Positions 3,594 through 21,667 of a stretch of 34,683 nucleotides of DNA are shown here, in pieces (position 1 is the stretch's first letter; each line of letters starts with the position of its first letter). Location: the NCBI RefSeq assembly GCF_000420525.1, contig NZ_ATVC01000023.1, positions 1-34,683 on the forward strand, read 5' to 3'. The notes under the pieces are model-generated. The model was not told where the DNA came from and did no database searches. It worked only from the letters and a program-made list of their open reading frames with translations. Made by a program: the position numbers and the translations under genes. This DNA is from Aquaspirillum serpens DSM 68. Its GTDB lineage: Bacteria > Pseudomonadota > Gammaproteobacteria > Burkholderiales > Aquaspirillaceae.

Positions 3594-6368
3594 ATGAAAA
3601 CTTTGTTATTAGTCGATGGCTCTTCCTATTTGTATCGCGCTTTCCATGCCATGCCAAACCTGCGTGCGCCCGATGGGGTACCGACTGGGGCGGTGTATGG
3701 CGTAATGAATATGTTGCGGCGGTTAGAGCGCGAATTACGCTATGAAGCTGCAATTTGTGTCTTCGATGCGAAAGGCAAGACCTTCCGCCATGACTTATAC
3801 CCCGACTACAAGGCTCAACGCGGGCCGATGGCTGACGATCTGGCGCAACAAATTCCCTTGGTACATCAGGCTGTCGAAGCATTGGGATGGCCGTTATTAC
3901 AAATGGCTGGTGTCGAAGCGGATGATGTGATTGCAACTTTGGTGACACAAGCTGAGGCCCTCGGTTGGGACACCATTGTTTGTACCGGTGATAAAGACCT
4001 TGCGCAATTGGTCAGTGCAAAAACACGGTTGTATAACTCGATGTCAGAACAATGGTTCGATCAAGCGGCAGTGGTTGAGAAATTTGGTGTGGCACCTGAA
4101 AAAATGGTCGATTTCTTAACGCTGACGGGGGATACCTCCGACAACATCCCGGGCGTGCATAAGTGCGGTGAGAAAACCGCCGCGAAATGGCTGGCAGAGT
4201 TTGGTTCATTAGAAGGGGTGGTGGCGGCGATTGAACGCGGGGCGATTAAAGGGAAAATTGGTGACTATGCCCGTGAGGCTTTGCCTCATCTGCCGCTGTC
4301 GCGTGAATTGGTCACGGTAAAGCGAGATCTGGATTTGAGTACGCTGTTGCCGACGGGTTTGGCGGCGGTTGAACGTCAACCTCCGCAATTATCTGTACTG
4401 CAAACCCTGTGTCGCCAACTTGGTTTCAAAGCATGGCTACAAGAATATAGCCGAGTATCCGCTGAAACACCGGCAGAAAACGCGCCTGTCGCCACCACAC
4501 CAGAACCGATGGTGTCGCCTACGTCTACAGCAGCGGTGTTACCCAGCGCCTGTTATCACACGCTGTTGACGCAAGACGCATTCGAATCATGGCTGGCGCG
4601 GATTGAAGAAGCCGAATACGTGAGTTTTGATACGGAAACGGATCGGCTTGATCCGCTGGAGGCGGAGTTGGTGGGCATCAGTTTTGCGGTTGCACCCTAT
4701 GAAGCGGCATATCTTCCTTTAGCGCATCGTGGCCCCGGGGTGGCACAACAGTTAGATCGGGACTGGGTGTTACAACGCCTGAAGCCGTGGTTAGAAAACC
4801 CTGACGCCAAGAAAGTTGGCCAAAATCTCAAATTTGATCGCCATGTCTTGGCGCGTTATCAGATTCGTCTGCAAGGGGTGGCCGAAGACACCATGTTGTT
4901 GAGTTATGTCTTGCAAAGCCATGTTGCACACAATATGGATGCGCTGGCAAAGCGCTATCTCAACTATGACACCCTGACCTTTGAGGAAATTTGCGGCAAA
5001 GGGGCCAAGCAAATCAGTTTTGCCGATGTCGATTTAGACACCGCCACGCGCTATGCAGCAGAAGACGCGGATATTACGCTGCGTTTGCTGCACGCGATGC
5101 GTCCTTTGCTGACACCCGAGGCTGAGCGTGTGTATCGTGACATTGAGTTACCGGTGGCTGAGATTTTGACTGACATGGAAGAGGTCGGGGTATCGGTTGA
5201 TCCTAAAATTCTGCAAGATCAAAGTATGGTATTAGGACAGCGCTTGTTACTGCTTGAACAACAGGTTCATGCGATGGCTGGCCAGCCGTTTAATCTCAAT
5301 TCACCAAAACAGGTCAGTGAGATTTTATTCGACCGCCTACAGATTCCAAGTAAGGGCCTGAAAAAAACCACCACGGGTATTTCCACCAATGAAGAAACGC
5401 TAGAGAAATTAGCGACGACGTATCCGATTGCTCAACAGTTGTTGGATTACCGTGGTTTGGCAAAACTGAAATCGACTTACACCGATAAATTACCAAACGC
5501 AATTTCTCTACAAACACAGCGGGTGCATACCCACTACTCGCAAACTGGCACCATCACGGGTCGCTTGTCCAGTTCAGAGCCAAATTTACAAAACATCCCC
5601 ATCCGCAGTGAAGAAGGGCGAGCCATCCGAAAAGCGTTTGTTGCACCAGCGGGGACGGTGATTGTCTCAGCGGATTATTCGCAGATTGAGCTGCGGATTA
5701 TGGCGCATTTATCGCAGGATGAAGGCCTGCTACAGGCGTTTCAGCAAGGGTTAGATATTCATCGTGCAACAGCCGCTGAAATTTTTGAAATACCGTTGGA
5801 TGAGGTCAGCCCCGAGCAGCGGCGTTACGCAAAAACCATTAACTTCGGCCTGATTTACGGCATGACTGTGTTTGGTTTGGCCAAGGCGTTAGAAATTGAA
5901 CGCAGTGCTGCCCAACAATTTATTGATCGTTATTTCCAACGCTACCCTGGTGTGGCGCGCTATATGGAAGACACGCGCCAGCTGGCCCGTGAACAAGGTT
6001 ATGTCGAAACCGTGTTTGGCCGCCGTTTACTGCTACCCGATATTAACGACCGCAACCCGATGAAACGCCAAGCCGCTGAACGCGCGGCAATTAACGCCCC
6101 GATGCAAGGCACGGCAGCTGATTTAATCAAAATGGCGATGATTCGGGTGGCCAAACGGTTAGGGCCGCCACCGCTTGGTTTGGTCGATTTGTCTGAACAC
6201 ACGATATTGATGATGCAAGTGCATGATGAATTGGTGTTACAGGTGCCCGAGGCGGAAAAAGACGCTGTGTTAGCGTGGTTACCTCAAGACATGGCAGCAG
6301 TGGCGACCTTGCGCGTGCCATTGCTGGCCGAGGTGGGATATGGGCCAAGTTGGGGGGCTGCCCATTAA
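3594..6368 (+). CDS. polA: DNA polymerase I
   Basis: 924 residues, the usual length. Three domains are visible. The N-terminal 5'-3' exonuclease (1-290) opens MKTLLLVDGSSYLYRAFHA and contains VEADDVIATL and GDTSDNIPG. The 3'-5' proofreading exonuclease (about 335-520) has all three motifs: FDTETD (D346, E348), GQNLKFDRH and YAAEDADIT. The polymerase domain has motif A SADYSQIELR (D694), motif B RRYAKTINFGLIYG and motif C VHDE (D878). Every catalytic acid is present, so the enzyme should both proofread and remove RNA primers in Okazaki fragment maturation and excision repair. A variable linker (about 300-325) is rich in Pro, Ala and Thr. No strong SD precedes ATG 3594. It is divergent from the LOG gene with a short shared spacer. 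Confidence 0.98.
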   Translation: MKTLLLVDGSSYLYRAFHAMPNLRAPDGVPTGAVYGVMNMLRRLERELRYEAAICVFDAKGKTFRHDLYPDYKAQRGPMADDLAQQIPLVHQAVEALGWPLLQMAGVEADDVIATLVTQAEALGWDTIVCTGDKDLAQLVSAKTRLYNSMSEQWFDQAAVVEKFGVAPEKMVDFLTLTGDTSDNIPGVHKCGEKTAAKWLAEFGSLEGVVAAIERGAIKGKIGDYAREALPHLPLSRELVTVKRDLDLSTLLPTGLAAVERQPPQLSVLQTLCRQLGFKAWLQEYSRVSAETPAENAPVATTPEPMVSPTSTAAVLPSACYHTLLTQDAFESWLARIEEAEYVSFDTETDRLDPLEAELVGISFAVAPYEAAYLPLAHRGPGVAQQLDRDWVLQRLKPWLENPDAKKVGQNLKFDRHVLARYQIRLQGVAEDTMLLSYVLQSHVAHNMDALAKRYLNYDTLTFEEICGKGAKQISFADVDLDTATRYAAEDADITLRLLHAMRPLLTPEAERVYRDIELPVAEILTDMEEVGVSVDPKILQDQSMVLGQRLLLLEQQVHAMAGQPFNLNSPKQVSEILFDRLQIPSKGLKKTTTGISTNEETLEKLATTYPIAQQLLDYRGLAKLKSTYTDKLPNAISLQTQRVHTHYSQTGTITGRLSSSEPNLQNIPIRSEEGRAIRKAFVAPAGTVIVSADYSQIELRIMAHLSQDEGLLQAFQQGLDIHRATAAEIFEIPLDEVSPEQRRYAKTINFGLIYGMTVFGLAKALEIERSAAQQFIDRYFQRYPGVARYMEDTRQLAREQGYVETVFGRRLLLPDINDRNPMKRQAAERAAINAPMQGTAADLIKMAMIRVAKRLGPPPLGLVDLSEHTILMMQVHDELVLQVPEAEKDAVLAWLPQDMAAVATLRVPLLAEVGYGPSWGAAH

Positions 6369-9418: not shown

Positions 9419-11350
9419 ATGAATACGTCGTCGCTGCAATTTCGGTTACTAATGGTCATTGTCAGTGTTGGCATCATGGTGGCATTGGTTGCCGGGATGT
9501 TTGTGTGGCAAATGAGTGGCAAGCTGTCGTTGCATGAGCAGGATGCAGTGAACCAGACCTTGCGTGATACGTTGCAAAATCGTCTCGATAGCAAGTTAGA
9601 TGTGGGATTGACCAATGCAGCAGCCTTGGCCGTACGGCCTGATATCGTGACAGCGTTGATGAGTGGGGACCCTGCTTTTGCTAAAACCACTTTGGCTGGG
9701 GTAAGCGAAAACATTAAGAAAGAAACCAACTATAAAGGCATCCGCTTACATCTGATTGATGCAGAGTTAAATAGCTTGGCACGCAGTTGGACGGACAAAG
9801 GCGTAGGTGACTCGAATGCAGCGCAGGCCAGTCGGCAACAAATTAAAGCCGATCAAAAGCCCATCGTGGGGTTTGAAGCGGGTAAAGAAGGGGTGTGGTT
9901 GCGTAGTATTGCCGCCATTCATGATCCCGACCAACGCTTTATTGGGATGTTGGAGTTTATTCAGGGCGTAGGCAGTATCAGCCGCGATTTTGAAAAAGAA
10001 GGGCGTCGCTATGTCGCCTTGGTTAATCCCGATCTGGCCCCACAGGGCGACAGCGTGGGTGCATGGAAATTGACGGTTACCAAACACTACAGCGATGAAA
10101 CACAGGCTTTTGCTCGCAGTTTGGATTTGGCGACCTTATTTGCCCAAGGGGTATTAAACACCCCAGATTGGTATGTGGTGGCGTTGCCGTTGAAGGATAT
10201 CGGCGGTAAGCAGTTGGGGTGGCATGTGTTAGCCGAACCTCAAGTGCGCTTACAAGCAAAAATGGAACATGCCCAGCAGATGGGCTGGTTATTTCTGGTG
10301 TTGTTATTGCTGTCGCTGGTTACCATGGGCACAGGTGTGTTGTTCTTGGTACGCAAAGCGATGGTGAAACCGACACAAGGCATTGCCAAGCGGATGAGGA
10401 AACTGGCTGAAGGCGATTTTACTATCCAATTTCACACCGAGCGCAATGATGAAATCGGGTTAGTGTCGCAGTCGGCTCAGAATATGGTGCAACAGACGGC
10501 GACGACTTTTGCGCAGGTGCGCCACGCCTCGCAACAGCTGCATGTGGCTGCCGATACGCTAAGCCAGCAAGCGCGGGAAATCAATCAAGGGACACAGGAA
10601 CAAAGTCGTAATGTCTCGGCAACGGCGGCAGCCGTCGAACAGATTAGCCGTAGTATTGAAGAAGTGGCACGGAGTGCTGCCTTGGCACAGCAAGAATCGC
10701 TGGCCACCCGTCAGACAGTGGAAGAAGGGGTGCAAGTGGTGTCAATCACCTGCCAAGATATGATTGGTATTGCCCAAAGTGTGCAATCGGCGGCTAAAAA
10801 AGTGACGCATCTCAATGCTTCGACGGATCGTGTGGAAAATATTGTGCAAACGATTAAAGACATTGCCGATCAAACCAACTTATTAGCGTTGAATGCAGCG
10901 ATTGAAGCGGCGCGCGCAGGGGAAACTGGGCGTGGGTTTGCGGTGGTGGCGGATGAAGTGCGTAAATTGGCAGAGAAAACCATTATTGCCACGGAAGAAA
11001 TCAGTGGCATGGTGTTAGAGATTCAAGGCTCGACCGATTCTGTGGTCAAAGAGATGGAACAGAGTTTGGGACAGGTGGATCGTGGCCAACAGAGTGCCAC
11101 ACAAGCAAGCACTGCCTTGCAAGATATTCGGCAACGAGTGGAGCGTGTTACGCAAGAAATGCAGCAAATTAGCTTGGCCACGCAAGAACAAGCGCGGGCG
11201 ACGCATAGCCTTGGTGAGGCGATGACTGGGATTGCCGAGGTGGCGGCATATAATGCACAGGCGGTGGAGCAGACCCAAACTGTGGCTGAGGAAATTAACC
11301 AGCAGGCCAATCAGATGGAGCAACAATTAGCAGGTCTGCGCTTGCCATAA
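9419..11350 (+). CDS. Methyl-accepting chemotaxis protein with periplasmic Cache-type sensor
   Basis: 643 residues, start fixed by AAGGAGG immediately upstream. Layout: membrane segment 1 at about 9-30, a periplasmic region to about 285 that fits a Cache-fold ligand domain (it contains [16 protein letters not shown] and a [15 protein letters not shown] stretch), membrane segment 2 at about 287-310, HAMP ([20 protein letters not shown]), then a long methylated coiled coil with the conserved CheA/CheW-binding tip [16 protein letters not shown] at about 486-501. The receptor should pass ligand binding outside the cell to the CheA kinase. There is no C-terminal CheR-tethering pentapeptide. The ligand cannot be inferred. 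It ends in a long hairpin before the convergent hemL gene. Confidence 0.93.
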
Positions 11351-11441: not shown

Positions 11442-12719
11442 TTATAAGCGTGCAAAAGCACGTTCGGCGGCGGTGATGGTGGCTTGAATATCCTCATCGC
11501 TGTGTGCGATAGACACAAAGCCCGCTTCATAGGCCGAAGGTGCGAGATAGATGCCTTCATCTAACATGGCATGGAAGAAGCGTTTAAAGGCGTCGTTGTT
11601 GCAGGCGGTAACGGTGGCGTAACTATTGGGGACTTCTGGTGCAAAGTAGAAGCCAAACATACCGCCGACCCAATCGCTGCTAAACGGTAGCCCTGCGGCG
11701 TTGGCTGCTGCTTGTACCCCTTTAACTAAAGTTTCGCTGCGGCGAGTTAATTCTTCGTGGAAACCCGGGCGGCTGATAAGGCGTAGGGTAGTGACGCCAG
11801 CGGCCACGGCCAGTGGGTTGCCCGACAAGGTGCCCGCTTGATAGACCCCACCCAGTGGGGCGATTTTGGCCATGATGTCAGCACGACCGCCAAACACCGC
11901 CATCGGCATTCCACCACCCACCACCTTGCCGAGGGTGGTCAAGTCTGGTTTGATGCCGTGTAGTGATTGGGCACCGCCGAGTGCGACACGGAACCCCGTC
12001 ATCACTTCATCATAAATCAACACTGCACCGTGTTTCTCGGTCAGACTCCGCAGCGCATGAACAAAAGCTTCGCTGGGGCGAATCAGATTCATATTGCCGG
12101 CAAAAGGCTCCAGAATCACACACGCAATTTCATCGCCCAATTCGGCAAAAGTCTGTTCCAACTGACTGACGTTGTTGTAGTCCAGCACGAGGGTATGACG
12201 GGTAAAGTCGGCTGGGACGCCGGCGGAAGACGGATTGCCAAAGGTGAGCAAACCTGAGCCGGCTTTGACCAATAAGCTATCCGAATGCCCGTGATAGCAT
12301 CCCTCGAATTTGATGATCTTGTCGCGACCAGTAAAACCGCGTGCCAGACGAATCGCGGTCATGGTGGCTTCGGTGCCGGAGCTAACCAAACGCACTTGTT
12401 CCATTGAAGGGACGAGTTGCCGAATCATCTCCGCAATTTCAATCTCACCTTCTGTTGGCGCGCCATAGGACAGCCCATTGGCTGCCGCAGCTTGAACCGC
12501 CGCAATCACTTCAGGATGGGCATGGCCGAGAATGGCTGGCCCCCACGAGCCGATGTAATCGATAAATTTTTTATCATCTGCATCCCAAAAGTACGCACCT
12601 TGTGCCCGTTGCACAAAGCGGGGGGTGCCTCCGACGCTGCCAAAAGCGCGTACTGGGGAATTGACACCACCGGGGATGGATAATTTAGCACGTTCAAATA
12701 ACTCGGCATTACGGCTCAT
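11442..12719 (-). CDS. hemL: Glutamate-1-semialdehyde 2,1-aminomutase
   Basis: 425 residues, full length. It converts glutamate-1-semialdehyde to 5-aminolevulinate, the C5-pathway entry to heme. The PLP lysine is in [12 protein letters not shown] (K265), the pyridine-nitrogen Asp in [10 protein letters not shown] (D237), and the N-terminal [11 protein letters not shown] and [13 protein letters not shown] motifs are those of the enzyme. It starts 50 bases after the CYTH gene, and no terminator is seen between, so hemJ, the CYTH gene and hemL probably form one transcript. This organism therefore makes 5-aminolevulinate from glutamyl-tRNA; hemA is not in the window. Confidence 0.97.
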
Positions 12720-13261: not shown

Positions 13262-13678
13262 TTAGAAAGGTTTGAGAACCACTAAAAAGACCACGGCAAA
13301 CATTACCAAGACGGGCCCCTCGTTAAAGAAACGGTACCAAACATGGCTGCGGCGGTTTTGGCCGTTGCGGAAGGTTTTTAACAGATGGCCGCAATAGAAG
13401 TGATAGCCGATGAGGGCAGCAACCAGTGTCGTTTTGGCGTGTAACCATCCGCCCTGAAAGCCAAACCCGAACCATAGCCACAAACCAAACACCACAGCCA
13501 ATGCCCCTAATGGGGTCATAAAGCGGTAGAGCTTGTGTGACATCAAGGTCAAACGGTCGCGTTCGGCTTGGGTGTCAGCCATCGCCAAATTCACAAACAG
13601 CCTTGGTAGATAAAACAAACCAGCAAACCAAGCGATCACGAAACAAATATGTAACGCTTTTACAACGGGGTAGCTCAA
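13262..13678 (-). CDS. hemJ: HemJ-family protoporphyrinogen IX oxidase
   Basis: 138 residues with four hydrophobic segments and almost no loops. HemJ enzymes carry a conserved His and Lys 72 residues apart that bind heme b; here H10 (in VVKALHICFVIAW) and K82 (in WLHAKTTL) have exactly that spacing. The FYLPRLFV and FNEGPVLVMFAVVFLVVLKPF segments are also characteristic. The protein oxidises protoporphyrinogen IX to protoporphyrin IX with electrons going to the respiratory chain. It is first in a run with the CYTH gene and hemL, and is preceded by AAGGAGAG. Confidence 0.9.
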   Translation of the reverse strand: MSYPVVKALHICFVIAWFAGLFYLPRLFVNLAMADTQAERDRLTLMSHKLYRFMTPLGALAVVFGLWLWFGFGFQGGWLHAKTTLVAALIGYHFYCGHLLKTFRNGQNRRSHVWYRFFNEGPVLVMFAVVFLVVLKPF

Positions 13679-13745: not shown

Positions 13746-13759
13746 ATGACCTCGATCAA
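13746..13759. promoter_or_regulatory. Possible FNR/ANR-type site between hemJ and the PAS genes
   Basis: ATGAC-CTCG-ATCAA matches the anaerobic regulator box TTGAT-N4-ATCAA at 8 of 10 positions, including one perfect half. It lies between hemJ (oxygen-linked heme synthesis) and the Aer-like genes (redox taxis), both reasonable targets. I could not place a convincing -10 at the standard distance. Confidence 0.35.
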
Positions 13760-13835: not shown

Positions 13836-14378
13836 ATGTTCTCTGTGTCTTCTCGCCATGAAAAAGAGATTCTGTTATCACTAGATCAAATGATTGTGAC
13901 CAAAACTGATCTGAAAGGGCAGATTACCTATGCTAACCGGACTTTCATGGAAATCGCTGATTTTCAAGAACATGAAGTGTTGAACAAACCACACAACCTC
14001 ATCCGCCATCCCGATATGCCTCGCGGTGTATTTCGTCTGATGTGGAAGACCTTACAAAAGCGGCAAGAGTTTTTCGGTGTGGTGAAAAATTACACCTCTA
14101 ATCGCAAGCAATACTATTGGGTGTTGGCAAACATCACCCCCGATTTTAATAACGCAGGTCAGTTGGCTGGTTTCTACTCGGTGCGCCGTCCTGCCTCACG
14201 CGCTGCTATCGCTGCTTTAGAACCGATTTATCAACAAATGCGCCAGATCGAAGCCAAACTAAGCAAGACCGAAGGGCCGGATGCTTCTGTTGCTTGGCTA
14301 TTAGATCAGGTCAGAATGAGTGGTGCGAGTAATTACGAAGATTTTGTCATGTCTTTAAATAAAGATATTATCAAATAA
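13836..14378 (+). CDS. Aer-like FAD-binding PAS protein, first copy (CetB-like)
   Basis: 180 residues: one PAS domain (about 15-125) and a short helical tail, with no membrane segment and no signalling domain. The start ATG 13836 follows AAAGGAAA; it places [10 protein letters not shown] so that R57, H58 and D60 fall on the numbers of the FAD-contacting residues of E. coli Aer, and it aligns with the second copy. The motifs KGQITYANRTFM, FFGVVKNYTSN and GFYSVRR also match the Aer PAS domain. It should sense redox state or electron transport through FAD and act on a separate transducer, as CetB does on CetA in Campylobacter. It leads an apparent operon with the second PAS gene and the chemoreceptor. 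Confidence 0.87.
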   Translation: MFSVSSRHEKEILLSLDQMIVTKTDLKGQITYANRTFMEIADFQEHEVLNKPHNLIRHPDMPRGVFRLMWKTLQKRQEFFGVVKNYTSNRKQYYWVLANITPDFNNAGQLAGFYSVRRPASRAAIAALEPIYQQMRQIEAKLSKTEGPDASVAWLLDQVRMSGASNYEDFVMSLNKDIIK

Positions 14379-14487
14379 ACAAAAATCATAAGAAATTGAC
14401 TAAATAAATGTTTCATTATTTTGACATAGCACAAAGCAGATCAAGGTATGATTACATCCTTTGTGAACTGTCTGCTCTGTCAACCTC

Positions 14488-15033
14488 ATGTCTGCCCACT
14501 CATCTAGCCAAGAAGTGCTGTTGTCCGCTCACGATTTAATCATCACTAAAACCAACACCAAGGGACATATTACCTACGCTAACCGTATGTTTATGACGGT
14601 TTCGCAATATCCAGAAGAACGGTTATTAGGCGAAGCACACAATATCGTGCGCCATCCTGATATGCCGCGTGGCGTGTTCCGTTTAATGTGGAAAACGCTA
14701 ACCCAAGGACATGAATTTTTTGGTGTTATTAAAAACTATACTGCATGTCATAACTACTATTGGGTCTTCGCAAATATAACGCCAGACTACGCTAAAAATC
14801 GGCAGATACAGGGGTATTATTCTGTACGTCGCCAAGCCAGTCGTGCCGAAATTGTGACCATGAGCGAGATTTATCAAAAAATGCGAACAATTGAGCAACA
14901 GCATGGCAAACAACAAGGCCCAGACGCGGCGATGAGTTGGTTGTTAAATTATGTGCGGCAGCAAGGCTACACCAGCTACGAAGGCTTTATCTTGTCTTTA
15001 CACCTCGCTCACCAAGGAACAAAACAGCGATGA
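14488..15033 (+). CDS. Aer-like FAD-binding PAS protein, second copy (CetB/CetC-like)
   Basis: 181 residues, clearly a tandem paralogue of the preceding gene (shared blocks [31 protein letters not shown] and the tail motif [10 protein letters not shown]...GPDA). The FAD-binding R-H-x-D set is kept (R55, H56, D58). It too lacks membrane and signalling domains. The stop codon overlaps the start of the chemoreceptor gene as ATGA (15030-15033), so the two are translationally coupled, which fits this copy being the direct partner of the transducer. The upstream 109 bases separating the two PAS genes are AT-rich and contain TTGACA and TATGAT elements spaced 20 apart, too far for a standard promoter. 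Confidence 0.88.
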
Positions 15034-16475
15034 CGCATCCCCACTCGCGCTTACACATGCCGTTTTTGCGTACATGGATTAAGCTCATTTTGGTTAGCTT
15101 TAACCTGATTATGGTGTTTGGGCTGACTTTGGTGCACTTTTTTCCTGATATGCACAATCTGCTGTGGCTGATTCCTTTTCTGTCGATTGCAATCAGTTTT
15201 TATATCCATCTCAACAGTCAACGCGCGTTGAAAGTATTGGATATTATGCGCGAGCAAATTCACCACGCGCGGCAAGGTGAATTGCACCACCGCGCCACTC
15301 GTACCCGCCATTTGGGTGAAGTTGGGCTCGTGGCGTGGGAAATGAATGATTTTTTAGATTTGGTGGAGACCTACTTCAAAGAAATTAACACTTGTTTTCG
15401 CCGTGTTAGTGAACATGATTTCCAACGCCGGCCATTGGCCGCAGGCTTGCCCGGGATGTTTGCTGAGTCGCTCGGCAAAATTGACGAGGCAATTCAAGCG
15501 ATGGCCGATAACGACCGCTTTGTGCGGCAAAATCGCTTATCGTCAAAACTGCATAATCTCAACACCGAACATCTCCGCAGCAACCTTGCCTCGAATCAAC
15601 ACGATTTACAAATTATCAGTGATGAAATCTCGGTGGTGGCAGAGATTGCACAAGAGAATGCTGCCAGCGCCAGCAAAAGCCAACAAACCGCCGATGCCAT
15701 TGGCCGCCATCTCGACACTATCGCCGGTAGTGTGACCTCAGTGAATACTGCAGCAGAAGATTTAAACCGCGAATGGCAACATATTGGCGAATCATTACAA
15801 GCCATCTCTGCCATTGCCGAACAGACCAATTTATTGTCGCTCAATGCCGCGATTGAGGCAGCACGGGCGGGGGAATCGGGGCGCGGATTTGCGGTGGTGG
15901 CAGATGAAGTGAAAAAACTCGCCACCCGCAGTAAAGAAACAGCCGATCAGGTGCAGGCTATTTTGGGCCGCCTGTCGTCACGCATTGAAGATATGCTGCA
16001 ACGGGCGGGGAATGCAGGTTCGGTGGCCGAGGAAGTGCGAACCTCGGTTGACGAATTCCGCCATCGTTTTGTCCGTCTGGCTGACACTTCATCCGAGGTT
16101 ATCCGCCGCGTCAGTTTGGTACAAGATAAATCGATTACGTCTTTGCTAAAAGTCGATCACATCGTCTCAAAACAAGAGGCCTATCACCTGCTTTCGGGTG
16201 AAGGCAATCCCCAGCAAGACCCAATTGGCCAAGGCCGATTCCAAGCATGGTATAGCAGTGATGGACAGGCCCGCTTTGGTGATTTAAGCACTTTCAAACT
16301 GCTGCACGACAAATATAGCGCGGTGCAACAACAGGTGCAGCTGGCGTTGAGTCATTTGGCCGATCAAGAAGAACAAACCATCTTACAAGCGATGAATGTG
16401 GCAGAGGGCGCGAGTGAGGTACTGTTAGCAGGCCTCGACTCGCTGGCTAAAGAAAGACAAGGCACACAACGCTAA
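15030..16475 (+). CDS. Chemoreceptor without periplasmic domain, with degenerate C-terminal CZB-like domain (CetA-like)
   Basis: 481 residues from ATG 15030. Two membrane segments (about 15-34 and 39-58) are separated only by the loop PDMHN, so there is no periplasmic sensor. Then follow a HAMP-like linker, a signalling coiled coil with the tip [16 protein letters not shown], and after it a segment reading [15 protein letters not shown]...[14 protein letters not shown] that aligns with the chemoreceptor zinc-binding (CZB) domain. Only the first His ligand (DHIV) is kept; the Cys of CRLGxWY and both later His ligands are replaced. Lacking its own sensor, it presumably receives the signal from the two PAS proteins encoded just upstream. 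The start overlaps the preceding stop, and the stop overlaps the convergent gene by 4 bases. Confidence 0.88.
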
Positions 16476-18592
16476 TTGGCGATGTTTTCTTCCTGTTTTT
16501 CTGCTTTTTCAGGGGGTGGTGTGTCCGCCGCCAGTGTTAATGCTTCGGGTAGCACAACATCAGGCAGTGGCACTTGATCGCTTAAATCGGGTGCTGTTGT
16601 CACTGCTGCTGCCGCTGCTGGTTTTTTTGGTGGAAAGAAAAACTCACGCGTGTGATGGCGGAAGTGACGCCATAGGCTGCCAAACAACAGCCCTTGTTGT
16701 GTCGTGTTCACGCCGCGTGCGCGCAAGGCTACAAACAGCGCCAAGGAAAAGCTCATGGTTAAGTTGACCAAGCCGACCAACGCCACCCCGAGTGCTGCCC
16801 ATGCCATCAATCCGAAGGCAAAATGAAAATCTAATGCCACTGCGGAATAGCCCAAATAAGCAGAAGAAAAAGCGATATGGCGAATATCCACCGGCAGGCC
16901 GAATAACACCCCGAACGCAGTCACGCCCCCTAACATAAAGCCAAACGAAAAATTCCCTGCTAGGGCACCGAGGTTGTTGCGAACGTACTCCGCTACACGG
17001 TACATGCGCGACTCGCCAAAAATTTTCCTTGGCCATTTCAGTTGTAATAACCGTTCTGGGATGCGGTTATAGGCGGCGGCATTGTCGTAATAACCAGCGA
17101 CCAAACCAGACAGGAACAAACAGACCCCCGCCACTGCCGCATAAAACACCGCGCCCGATTGCCAAGGGTGGACATCTTGCAGCAGATGGTGGGCTTTATC
17201 GACCGAGATCATGTGCTGACCCGTGGTGCCATAGATCAGCAAGCCAATCAACATGGCCATTGGCACGGCAAGGCCGACGTTGCCAATGATAGCGGCGAGT
17301 TGGCTGCGGCTGAGGCGCGCAATCAGGACCGCCAGTTTTTGCATATCACGCAATCGTCCTTGGCCCTCGCTGAGGGTGGCGGCGATGGTGTTGGCGGTCA
17401 TGGCTGGCTGTTTGGTGGCCACTGTCCCGTGGAGAATATGAATCAGCACAAACCCCAAGCCGTAGTTCAAACAAAACAGCAGGGCTTCGCTTAATGGCGG
17501 CAAATGGGCCTTGCTGACTTCTAATTTGATCATCGCCATAAAGGCAATAATAAAGCCCCCTAACATCGCAGACCGTAGCAGGCTAAAGTAATCTTTGCGG
17601 GTTTCGGTGATGTAGTGCTCACCGGTGCGGCTGGCGTTATCTGTCACCCGTCTAGCGAGTAATTCAATATTTTGTCGCCAATAATGGCGCAAGTGATTTT
17701 TACGACATTCAGCGCGAACTAGGGTTTTCCACAGGTGGATGATATGCGGCGCAGTGGCCTGAAAGTCTTTTTCATCGCGCAAGGTTTCTACGATATTGAG
17801 CAAGACTTGGGCGCGGTCGAGTAACTGCCCTAAGCGGCGCAGGTGAAAAGTCAGTGATAGGCTAGTGCCTTCGCGCCCTGCCCGATTGCGAATTTTTTCA
17901 ACAATGCCACGACATTGATCGAGTAACACTAAAAGATGTTTATCATCAATCGGTTGCTCTGGATCGTGGTAGTGGTCGAGATAGGCGACGGTTTCGACGT
18001 TTTGCGCTAAAAAAGGAGACTCAAACTCCTCTATTTTTGGCTCAATTCGCACGAGCTCTGGCTCTAAACCAATCGCCGAAATACGGTACGACACCACGCG
18101 CAGCGCTTCGAGTAGCTGTTGCAGCGGGCGCTGTGAATATTTTTCTTCTTCAAGATGTAAGGCACGAATGACATCAAGCCACACCGCATCCGAGACAAGA
18201 CCTAGCCATAACGCATCGCTGGCTTGGTGGAACACCATGCCAATAATGTCTTTAAGATAATCGGTGTTGGGCACATCCGGCAGCAAAGTCCGTGAAATAC
18301 GGCGGCCACTTTCGGTAAAAAAGCCGGTTCCCGGAAACACGCCAGTATCGACATAGAGGGAAATCGCTTTGCGTTCGCCCACTAATTGGTAAAGCGTACT
18401 GCGTAGATGACGGCGCAGATCGGCATGGGTATGCAGCATGTGGCAAAGTGCCTGCAAATTGCGAGTGGCTTCCTCGCCGTCATCGGGCCGTCGTGGCCGT
18501 AGGCTAGTGCCTAAATCGATGAGCGCAATAATCGGGTCTTGCTGTGCGTCACCAAAGCGTGCCAATGCCGCTTCAAGAGAAAGTTTTGTCAT
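16472..18592 (-). CDS. 'Site-specific recombinase Gcr' family membrane protein (PF10136)
   Basis: 706 residues from ATG 18592; a GTG at 18601 would add three. The first 330 residues are soluble and helical; the second half holds about six or seven membrane segments (for example [49 protein letters not shown] and [19 protein letters not shown]), followed by a Pro/Ala/acidic tail. This matches the Neisseria family annotated as Gcr site-specific recombinase. Nothing resembling a serine or tyrosine recombinase active site is visible, and the many membrane segments argue against that activity; the name should be treated as historical. Function unknown. Confidence 0.82.
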
Positions 18593-18806
18593 AGTTCGCA
18601 CATCACCGTATGTAAGAAAGCTGATGGCTTAGAGTGCAGCAACTGATGTTGCAGTGCAAGTAGAGAATACGCCTATTATCTTTGAGCAAGATTAAATTGT
18701 ATTGACATATCCTGATTATGTTTCTGTCGCACAGATAGCACTGTTTGTAAATAAAACTACTGTTTACATGATTTATTTAATGATTTAGGGCGAAAAAAGG
18801 GACGAA

Positions 18807-18830: not shown

Positions 18831-19436
18831 TTACAACTCCTCTGTTTTGAATTCGCTATAGCCTTCGTAGTAGTAGCTCACATCAATGCCCTTCATAAAC
18901 AGGGCACGGTCGTCGATGTTGTCGGTCAGGGCTTGTTTCAATAGCACTTTGATTTCAAGGTCTTTGATCGGGCTGCGCTGCATGGCAGAGAGGTATTCTT
19001 CTTTATCCACTTGGTTCCAGTCCACTACCTGCCTAATTTCCTTTTTCAGCATCAAATCGAGCCATATTCGAGTGGCGCGGCCATTGCCTTCACGGAAGGG
19101 GTGAGCCACGTTCATTTCCACATATTTTTCGATGATTTGCTCAAAGTTGCCCTGCGGCATGGCATCGATATGCTTGAGAGAGGCTTCCAGATACATGACT
19201 GGGGCGAAACGGAAATTACCTTTGGCGATATTCACGTCACGGATTTGTCCAGCGAAGGGGTAAATCTCCCCAAATAAATAGGCATGGATAAAGGAGAGTC
19301 CGGCGAATTTGCCCACCTCAACCTGATGAATATCTCCCGAGTCAAACAGCTGTTTGGCTTTTTGCTTGCTGATCTTTTCTTCAGCTTTGGCTAACTCGAT
19401 TTGATCGGTGATGTTGAGCTTGTTTTCCAGAATCAT
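18831..19436 (-). CDS. fic: Class III Fic protein, self-inhibited adenylyltransferase (NmFic-like)
   Basis: 201 residues. The Fic active site HPFREGNGR is at 112-120, with catalytic H112, and the flap and substrate strand [15 protein letters not shown] precede it. The C-terminal helix carries the inhibitory motif S-x-x-x-E-G as SYYYEG (187-192). Relative to Neisseria meningitidis Fic, H107, S182, Y183 and E186 are all present with a constant shift of five. In that protein the helix blocks ATP in the tetramer; on dilution it is released, self-modifies at the tyrosine and then AMPylates GyrB. The same behaviour is likely. The start has AAGGAAA. It lies 54 bases downstream of a chemoreceptor gene and has no antitoxin partner, as expected for class III. 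Confidence 0.92.
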
Positions 19437-19490: not shown

Positions 19491-21629
19491 TTAATTCACT
19501 TTAAATTGTGTCAGCAGATTTTCCATGCGATTAGACGCGACGCGGGTTTGTTGTGCGCTTTGTTCGCTTTGTAAGATGACTGCTTCGATATTTTCTGCCG
19601 TTTCTGCCACATGGCGTACATGCTGATCGTGTGCGTGGCTGCTGTCGGCAATTTGTTTAATCGCTTGCAACAACTCCCCCACCAAACGATGGGCGTCACC
19701 GTTTTCGCTGGCGGCACTGGCGGCGAGTTTTAAGCCTTCTTCCATATCGCTCATGCCGGTTTCCATACTGCTGACCGCGCCTTGTGCCTGTTGTTGAATA
19801 TTGTCGATCATCTGACGAATTTCATGCGTTGCCCCCGAAGTTCGTTCTGCCAGTTTACGCACTTCATCCGCCACCACTGCAAACCCCCGCCCACTTTCGC
19901 CTGCTCGTGCCGCTTCAATCGCCGCATTCAGCGCCAGCAGATTGGTTTGATCGGCAATTTCGCTGATCACGGCGACAATCCGACCAATTTCGGTGGTGCT
20001 TTGTGCCAACTGTTGCAGGGTGTGGGCCGAGGTACCCACTGACTCTTGAATTCCCTGTGAACGGGAACGAATCATCTCTACCTGCCCTGCGGCATGATGA
20101 GTGAGCTGTTCTAACTGTTGTTGCACTTGGGCGGCGTGGGCGCTGGCGGTGTCGATTTGGTTACGCTGTTGACCCAAAGAATCCAACATCGCCGCCGTTT
20201 CTTCTAGGATGTGTAAACCCGTCGAACGAGTTTCGCTTTGTGCCACTTCGGCTTGGCGATTGGCGGCGGCAATTTCGTGTGAAGATTGCACAATCCGCCG
20301 CACAATACTTTCCAACTGATCAATAAAGCTATTTAGCCATTGCGTCATGGTGGAAATTTCATCGGGTTTGTGTGCTTGTTGTGCCAGACGTTGCCGCAGG
20401 TCGCCGCCGCCTTCGGCAAGGTTGCGAATCATGCGAATACTCTCACGCAAGCGGCGTGATAAGTGGCGTGCACCCAATTGGTAGAATAGAAATGCACCAA
20501 AAAAGTGCAAAAATAAAGTCAATAACGCACCAACCCAGTGCGGTAAATCCAGTGCATAACTGGTTGAACTCGCTACACCACCGGCGACTAAGCTGCACGC
20601 CAGATAAAATTTCATCAGCCGATAGGCCACCGGGCGATTGCGATAGACCTCTTCTAAATCGGCTTCACACATTAGGCCCCATGTGTCAGGTGAGCCAGGT
20701 AATTGAAAGGTCATACCACGACCAATCACCGGAATATGGCGATAGTCGGCATAGCCGGGATAGGTGACAAATAGGTTTTCGCCACGGCGGATGGTTTCGC
20801 GCACGCCCGGATGTAACTGGCCGGTGGCGGGGTCGTTGAAAATCAGCTCTAATTCGGTGCGTTTTTGAACCTTCACCGTCCCATAAGGGGTGCGAACACC
20901 GTCTTTTAAGTTGTCGCCTAATGTAAAAGTGTTATCTTCAAAGCGTGAGCGAGAAAGTGCAGTGCCGGGTTTGATGGCAGGATCAAATACCGATTTCGCC
21001 ATAAACAAATAGTTATCACCCGAGTCGTGAAAAATATGGCCGGCTTCACGTTGAATCAGGTCGCTAATCACATCATTCGGCACCCGACCACACAAAATTG
21101 CTACCGTCTGTTGGTCTTTGATTAACGGCAAATAAAACATCAGCGTCATGTCATCATGAAACTTTGAGCTAGAGGGGCCGAGTTTTTCTGTCCAAGGGTC
21201 GGCATATGGACCATGTAACAAGCGTTGTTGCTGGATATGCGCTAATACTTTGGCTGGGGTATCACTGACACCAATACGGGCAGCGTGGCTAGAGGCTAAA
21301 ACCTCACCCGCCAAATCAAGAATAAACAGTTCGGAAAAATCTTCAGCCAGCTGCAAGCGCCGCGCCAGTGTTTGATGGTCGAGCTGTGGCCACCGCCCTA
21401 AACACGGTTGTGCTAAGGCGTTGAGGTGGCTCCATTGTTGTTCTGTCCACTGTTTCAACAAATTGACACGGGTTTGAGCAATCCCAGTAAAGACTTGCTC
21501 CAAACCTTCGTAACGGTGGCGGTTGAGCAAACAAGACCAGCGCATGGCAAGCTTGCCGCTTTTACCGAACCAAGGCAGCCAGCGACGTTCGCTGTCACTC
21601 AGCGGCATAGAGTGGCTATGAAGTTGCAT
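19491..21629 (-). CDS. Chemoreceptor with N-terminal Cache-like region and no N-terminal membrane anchor
   Basis: 712 residues from ATG 21629 (GGGGA upstream). Residues 1-335 include a Cache-like sensory region ([38 protein letters not shown] and a second half ending [14 protein letters not shown]). There is no hydrophobic segment before it. Two membrane segments follow close together (about 339-357 and 364-385), then HAMP-like sequence ([20 protein letters not shown]) and a coiled coil with the tip [16 protein letters not shown]. Cache domains are normally periplasmic and flanked by two membrane segments; this order instead puts the sensor in the cytoplasm. The upstream DNA carries three GCGACA motifs. 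Confidence 0.85.
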
Positions 21630-21667
21630 AAGGCGTATCCCCAAATGGCCTATTGTTATTGTATGAA

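Follow-up and report, generated by a model that had tools for sequence, protein, structure and literature searches.

The window, a stretch of 34,683 nucleotides from Aquaspirillum serpens DSM 68, carries two genes for stand-alone PAS proteins followed by the gene of a chemoreceptor that has no PAS domain of its own. This raises the question of what kind of receptor the three products form, and whether both PAS proteins serve the one transducer. Sequence, fold and gene arrangement place the module in the CetA/CetB family of bipartite energy-taxis receptors. We consider it likely that it is a two-sensor receptor of this type, in which both PAS proteins would bind FAD, dock on the single transducer and convey the redox state of the flavin to CheA. 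The three genes all lie on the forward strand, and the open reading frame list places them where a preliminary description of the locus had put them. The features are the following:

13836–14378, forward strand: pas1, a stand-alone FAD-type PAS protein of 180 amino acids, CetB-like, the extra copy
14004–14015, forward strand: R57-H58-P59-D60 flavin motif of pas1, from sequence comparison
14379–14487, no strand assigned: gap of 109 bp between pas1 and pas2, without a terminator-like site on the forward strand
14488–15033, forward strand: pas2, a stand-alone FAD-type PAS protein of 181 amino acids, CetB-like, coupled to the transducer
14650–14661, forward strand: R55-H56-P57-D58 flavin motif of pas2, from sequence comparison
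15030–16475, forward strand: CetA-type transducer of 481 amino acids (MCPsignal, 101.4 bits), overlapping pas2 by ATGA
15066–15218, forward strand: predicted membrane helical hairpin, residues ~13–36 and 43–63 (hydropathy; AF2 helices 13–36 and 43–81)
15219–15539, forward strand: CetA-type HAMP region, residues 64–170 (AF2 helices; six invariant residues)
15732–16121, forward strand: MCP signalling hairpin, residues 235–364 (MCPsignal match)
16125–16469, forward strand: decayed CZB zinc domain and tail, residues 366–480 (profile of 70 intact family tails, 57.3 bits)

The stop codon of pas2 and the ATG of the transducer gene share an ATGA at 15030–15033, so that the coupling of the second PAS gene to the chemoreceptor gene, as first described, is directly visible. 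The ATG of pas1 at 13836 has a plausible ribosome site, GAAAGGAAAA, upstream. Promoter- and terminator-like sites are fewer in this region than in shuffled sequence; the one promoter-like match (14344–14371) lies inside the end of pas1, and such matches in the region stay below the shuffled mean. An FNR-like site with one mismatch (13746–13759, 76 bp before pas1) was dropped, as the window contains 10 such matches, a number reached in 6 of 100 shuffles, against an expectation of 5.1 (sd 2.3). The two PAS proteins are 56% identical over 168 residues, which is too little for an assembly duplicate.

On the reverse strand, a UPF0093 gene (13262–13678), which we take to be HemJ-like, diverges from pas1, and a class-III aminotransferase gene (11442–12719), presumably hemL-like, lies further upstream. 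Neither of these neighbours was found beside the relatives compared (12 loci), and at E 1e-10 the window was matched at these loci by its PAS and chemoreceptor genes alone. On the other side, a SpecificRecomb (PF10136) gene (16472–18601, reverse strand) runs towards the transducer gene and overlaps it by 4 bp, end to end. It is followed by a Fic/DOC-family gene (18831–19436, reverse strand), situated between this site-specific-recombinase-like gene and a further chemoreceptor gene; altogether the contig has three chemoreceptor genes (9419–11350, 15030–16475 and 19491–21644).

A chance origin of the domain matches is excluded, with E-values of 6.5e-30 for pas1 against the solved PAS domain of Aer (8dik, phmmer) and 6.4e-29 for the transducer against MCPsignal. 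The AF2 model of pas1 (pLDDT 95.2) has 8dik_A as its top Foldseek match (TM 0.95 on target, rmsd 0.9, 40% identity). The R-H-x-D residues noted earlier in both tandem genes are indeed present, in pas1 with the very numbers of Aer (R57, H58, D60) and in pas2 as R55, H56 and D58. In Aer, these three residues are described as required for FAD binding, and C. jejuni CetB has R50, H51 and E53 in their place (PMC2628428).

To compare the two proteins with their family, we aligned them with 36 of 80 relatives. The alignment has 42 columns that are conserved in at least 90% of the 36 relatives, and pas1 keeps 41 and pas2 40 of them. Twelve sites that were checked individually (G28, H53, N54, R57, H58, D60, V65, F66, W70, N85, I100 and R117; pas1 numbering) are alike in both proteins. 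Mapping by motif puts among them seven residues (H, N, R, F, W, N, R) out of the eight listed as FAD contacts of Magnetospirillum CetB2. Spectroscopy and mass spectrometry have shown FAD in CetB2, the function of which is reported to be abolished by changes at F67, W71 and N86 (PMC12442639). With R, H and D/E in place and the CetB2 contacts matched by motif, both window proteins have the FAD residues of a CetB, and we infer that both bind FAD. At position 97, pas1 has L vs F in pas2 and all 36 relatives, and it also has a one-residue insertion.

The transducer has two predicted hydrophobic segments, residues ~13–36 and 43–63, joined by a loop of about six residues (hydropathy and AF2). This two-helix hairpin with its short loop is the membrane part expected of a CetA, and it agrees with the initial reading of two membrane segments and no periplasmic domain. 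In the AF2 model of the whole protein (mean pLDDT 83.7), the long hairpin is preceded by a helix-loop-helix-loop-helix arrangement, which probably represents two HAMP units in a row with connectors at residues 82–95 and 128–141. Six residues of this region (G83, R88, N106, D110, E113 and R133) are invariant in an alignment of the window transducer with 64 of 77 relatives (n = 65); nine conserved residues have been described for CetA-type HAMP domains (Elliott 2009). Pfam HAMP matches 4 and HAMP_2 1 of these 65 proteins, with the window transducer among neither, and searching PDB sequences with only the HAMP region returned nothing credible. A fold search with the whole transducer (E ≤ 0.001) returned chemoreceptors only, with no CZB structure among the 50 matches listed. 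The nearest relatives of the transducer are 48–52% identical to it, and each is encoded behind a CetB gene.

A PAS-only protein encoded beside a transducer without a PAS domain is the arrangement of the CetA/CetB family. C. jejuni provided the description of this family (PMC2628428), its definition came from 55 HAMP/PAS pairs of diverse bacteria (Elliott 2009, as cited in PMC2628428), and it is reviewed in PMC13401364. The module is not an Aer, in which PAS and signalling domain form one polypeptide; here they are separate genes. With pas1 it has a second adjacent CetB-like gene that lacks a transducer of its own, as in CetABC, in the order PAS-PAS-transducer and not CetC-CetA-CetB.

Searching named genomes with pas2, we obtained 231 confirmed matches and read the loci of the best 80 of 231, up to 4 kb on each side, some shortened by contig ends. 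In all 80, one PAS open reading frame is followed immediately by a transducer open reading frame on the same strand; two of the 80 transducers score below 150 bits against that of the window, the lowest at 52. The spacing was counted for 77 pairs (the 80 loci without L135, L145 and L159), 75 of which lie within 30 bp and 31 of which overlap (19 by 4 bp), the overlaps being favoured by the choice of the start nearest the PAS stop.

In a sample of the same taxonomic order (E 1e-35), 32 of 250 genomes match, and only the window genome has two matches within 2 kb; 20 of 40 same-order matches were examined as sequence stretches. Two same-order loci are identical to DNA of Vogesella, a betaproteobacterium. 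The betaproteobacterial setting pointed out at the start is supported by this, but with 32 of 250 genomes matching there is no support for its being special. In the class and phylum samples (E 1e-30), 27 of 369 and 41 of 398 genomes match, and four other genomes have two close matches: two have the order CetB-CetA-CetB (L209, L210) and two have CetB-CetA-CetB-CetA (L211, L212). Two sensors per transducer is a recurring arrangement. The order PAS-PAS-transducer occurs in the window genome alone among the genomes sampled, in surveys that can miss copies at these cut-offs (E 1e-35 for the order, 1e-30 for class and phylum) and with a limited number of candidates scored per genome.

The preliminary description had called the transducer sensor-less. 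This is right as regards a periplasmic domain, but the protein does end in a CZB-like tail, though with three of the four zinc ligands lost. The Pfam model of the chemoreceptor zinc-binding domain (CZB) matches 50 of the 65 family transducers and does not reach the window transducer. The tail of the latter scores 57.3 bits with a profile built from 70 intact family tails and is a homologous C-terminal domain. H377 is kept, whereas the Cys is replaced by G402 and the two other His by Y429 and Q433, so that the set of three His and one Cys is broken. The tail is predicted to be helical (pLDDT ~75–96, AF2). It appears to keep the fold, but zinc binding of the usual kind is hardly possible; the CZB Cys is described as ~100% conserved and required (PMC8262984). 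CZB sensing is tied to zinc and redox in a 2026 preprint (PMC13370339), the main text of which contains neither CetA nor the word "bipartite".

Loss of zinc ligands is not confined to the window. Of 93 transducers, 70 have the full HCHH set and two end before the site is complete (L092, L186), which leaves 91 assessable. At least one ligand is lost in 21 of these 91, with the Cys gone in 20 of the 21. The losses fall in the clade of the window (8 of 10 assessable rows), in Oceanospirillum (5 of 5), in Marinospirillum (5 of 5) and in the single rows L143, L155 and L197. On a tree calculated without the tail columns, the label intact or lost changes at least seven times; since the incomplete row L092 accounts for one of these changes, six is the more cautious number, and such a count does not distinguish loss from gain. 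This tree comprises transducers of at least 150 bits and thus leaves out L145, L159, L195, L196, L198 and L200, as well as L199 and L204, which have no transducer match; also omitted were L135 (truncated) and L188, L189, L191, L193 and L194 (duplicates), and L209–L212 are in no tree. The tails are shortened in Oceanospirillum and Vogesella, while several other ligand-losing relatives keep a full-length tail. The more distant, CetB-linked transducers L211 and L212 have no CZB motif in their last 90 residues, and the zinc domain is therefore a feature of this branch and not of the whole family.

Since the zinc site of the tail is hardly able to bind zinc, flavin is likely the sole redox input of the window transducer, which is probably a flavin-only receptor. 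The confident predicted fold means that the tail may still do something. That the transducer still senses through it, with the CZB-like domain binding another ligand or metal or serving as a protein contact, would fit the retention of a tail predicted with good confidence and the full-length tails of several ligand-losing relatives (those of Oceanospirillum and Vogesella are shortened). Three of the four ligands are gone, however, including the Cys that is described as required (PMC8262984), and we regard such sensing as distinctly unlikely.

The remainder of the genome bears on the question of which transducer pas1 serves. Across the 2.6 Mb of this genome there are 42 MCPsignal matches, of which some are fragments. 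A search with the N-terminal half finds two strong transducers, that of the window and one on contig C34, and a third, marginal match of 20 bits. The C34 transducer is ~35% identical to that of the window and belongs to a second CetB-CetA pair (locus L077, 5706–7735) with a 4-bp overlap and an intact CZB zinc site. As this only other strong transducer of the CetA family has a CetB of its own, the window transducer is the likeliest partner of pas1, and the earlier proposal that the locus follows the CetABC logic of two PAS proteins and one transducer is strengthened.

Among the other receptors of the genome, an Aer-like gene on contig C50 (L079) appears broken: at ~4980–4999, in its PAS part, a 10-bp stretch is repeated head to tail, and the PAS frame (128 amino acids) and the signalling frame (459 amino acids) are out of register. 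Either a genuine frameshift or an error of the assembly could explain this. Three genomes of the same family (G001–G003, loci L071–L076) were also compared. G001 resembles the window genome: of its two CetB-CetA pairs, one has an intact zinc site and the other lacks it; G003 has two pairs, both without an intact site, and in G002 one transducer is readable and its zinc site is intact.

In the two-sensor reading, pas1 and pas2 would hold FAD in the cytoplasm, with the HAMP region directly beneath the membrane hairpin as their docking site. A changed electron flow would alter the redox state of the flavin and switch the transducer, and the MCP hairpin would relay the signal to CheA. With its overlapping gene, pas2 would be the canonical partner, and pas1 a second, CetC-like sensor of the same transducer. 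The docking, the share of pas1 in the transducer and the direction of the response are what we infer here. In Magnetospirillum, CetB2 contains FAD and interacts with CetA2, and the predicted stoichiometry is one CetB per CetA in the dimer (PMC12442639); by analogy, we conjecture that the dimer of the window transducer would have room for a mixed pair of pas1 and pas2. For C. jejuni, CetC is reported to replace CetB in trans, and the double mutant to be more affected than each of the single mutants (PMC3558505). According to PMC9665402, CetA interacts with CetB as well as with CetC.

Alternatively, only pas2 would serve the transducer, and pas1 would be the leftover CetB of a pair whose transducer was lost, now idle or with another partner. 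With 109 bp between the two genes, separate expression of pas1 or a role for it elsewhere is conceivable; in Magnetospirillum, an orphan CetB5 adjoins a CheY paralog, and other CetB and CetA paralogs are reported as no substitute for CetB2 and CetA2 (PMC12442639). The three same-family genomes do each have two separate loci with a CetB gene of this clade, and the CetB-CetA-CetB-CetA tandems of two other genomes would yield the window order by a single gene loss. In the best PAS tree, pas1 groups weakly with one set of these genes (set b; 90/80, not starred), and a grouping of pas2 with the other (set a) is not rejected (p-AU 0.59), the sets having been named after seeing a first tree. Against this, a plain tandem duplication, with pas1 and pas2 as sisters, is likewise not rejected (p-AU 0.61), and pas1 is not decaying, since it keeps 41 of the 42 conserved columns and an open frame. 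Pairing pas2 with set b (0.098) or pas1 with set a (0.17) completes the comparison; in the transducer tree, p is 0.157 for the window with set a, 0.082 for set a less L071, 0.263 for set b and 0.060 for L071. A large PAS tree was set aside for the question of origin, as it is weak in this part and joins long branches. The trees are compatible with either origin, tandem duplication or two pairs minus one transducer, and we judge it rather unlikely that pas1 is a mere leftover.

The preliminary description had also suggested that the two PAS copies could set opposing or graded responses, which would require pas1 and pas2 to differ in redox midpoint while acting through one transducer. Of their aligned residues, 44% differ, and the oxygen-repellent response driven by Magnetospirillum CetBA2 indicates that the sign can vary between systems (PMC12442639). 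All 12 checked sites are nevertheless the same in pas1 and pas2, and in the C. jejuni work CetC substitutes for CetB while the opposing receptor is a separate protein, CetZ (PMC3558505). The suggestion thus finds no support, and we consider it very unlikely.

The module would offer a natural system in which to study the integration of two sensor subunits by a single receptor. A zinc redox domain is also present in many bipartite flavin receptors of this branch, where the zinc site was lost repeatedly while the flavin site was kept. With one pair that has an intact zinc site and one that does not, the genome allows the weight of flavin and zinc inputs to be tested in one cell. It is conceivable, if quite improbable, that close relatives have two redox inputs (flavin via CetB, zinc/cysteine via the CZB tail) and that this lineage lost the zinc input and gained a second flavin sensor, the dimer carrying pas1, pas2 or one of each and covering a wider redox range. 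In the part of the literature on CZB, CetA and energy taxis that we covered, we did not find the pairing of a CZB zinc domain with a CetA/CetB flavin receptor. That flavin receptors of this branch bear a zinc redox domain, and have lost it repeatedly, seems to us more interesting than the gene arrangement, the novelty of which is modest.

Compared with CZB chemoreceptors (TlpD, the membrane-bound CZB group of PMC8262984 and McpA of PMC13370339), most close relatives of the window transducer similarly have a C-terminal CZB domain with three His and one Cys, whereas the window transducer has lost three of the four. E. coli Aer has the same PAS fold (rmsd 0.9 to 8dik) and the same flavin residues in one fused protein, while the window has separate PAS and transducer genes. 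It also differs at G28 and V65, which the window shares with C. jejuni CetB and which equal the Aer suppressor mutations S28G and A65V, described as allowing FAD binding despite HAMP mutations (PMC2628428); at the third suppressor site (Aer 99), pas1 and pas2 have I and CetB has V. Magnetospirillum gryphiswaldense CetB2/CetA2 resembles the module in its overlapping PAS and transducer genes and in the kind of FAD contacts, with FAD shown there; unlike the window, it has one CetB per CetA, and its response is repellent (PMC12442639). The word "zinc" is absent from the main text of that paper. C. jejuni CetA/CetB/CetC (Tlp9, Aer2 and Aer1) resembles the window in its single membrane transducer, which has two membrane helices, a HAMP and a signalling domain, and in its two stand-alone PAS proteins, for one of which, CetB, Aer-like flavin residues are stated (PMC2628428, PMC3558505). 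It differs in its order, CetC-CetA-CetB against CetB-CetB-CetA in the window, and in the E of CetB where the window proteins have D60; a CZB domain is described there on Tlp6 and none on CetA (PMC9665402). Two PAS genes per transducer were thus known; the module stands apart by its gene order, its second sensor and a decayed zinc domain.
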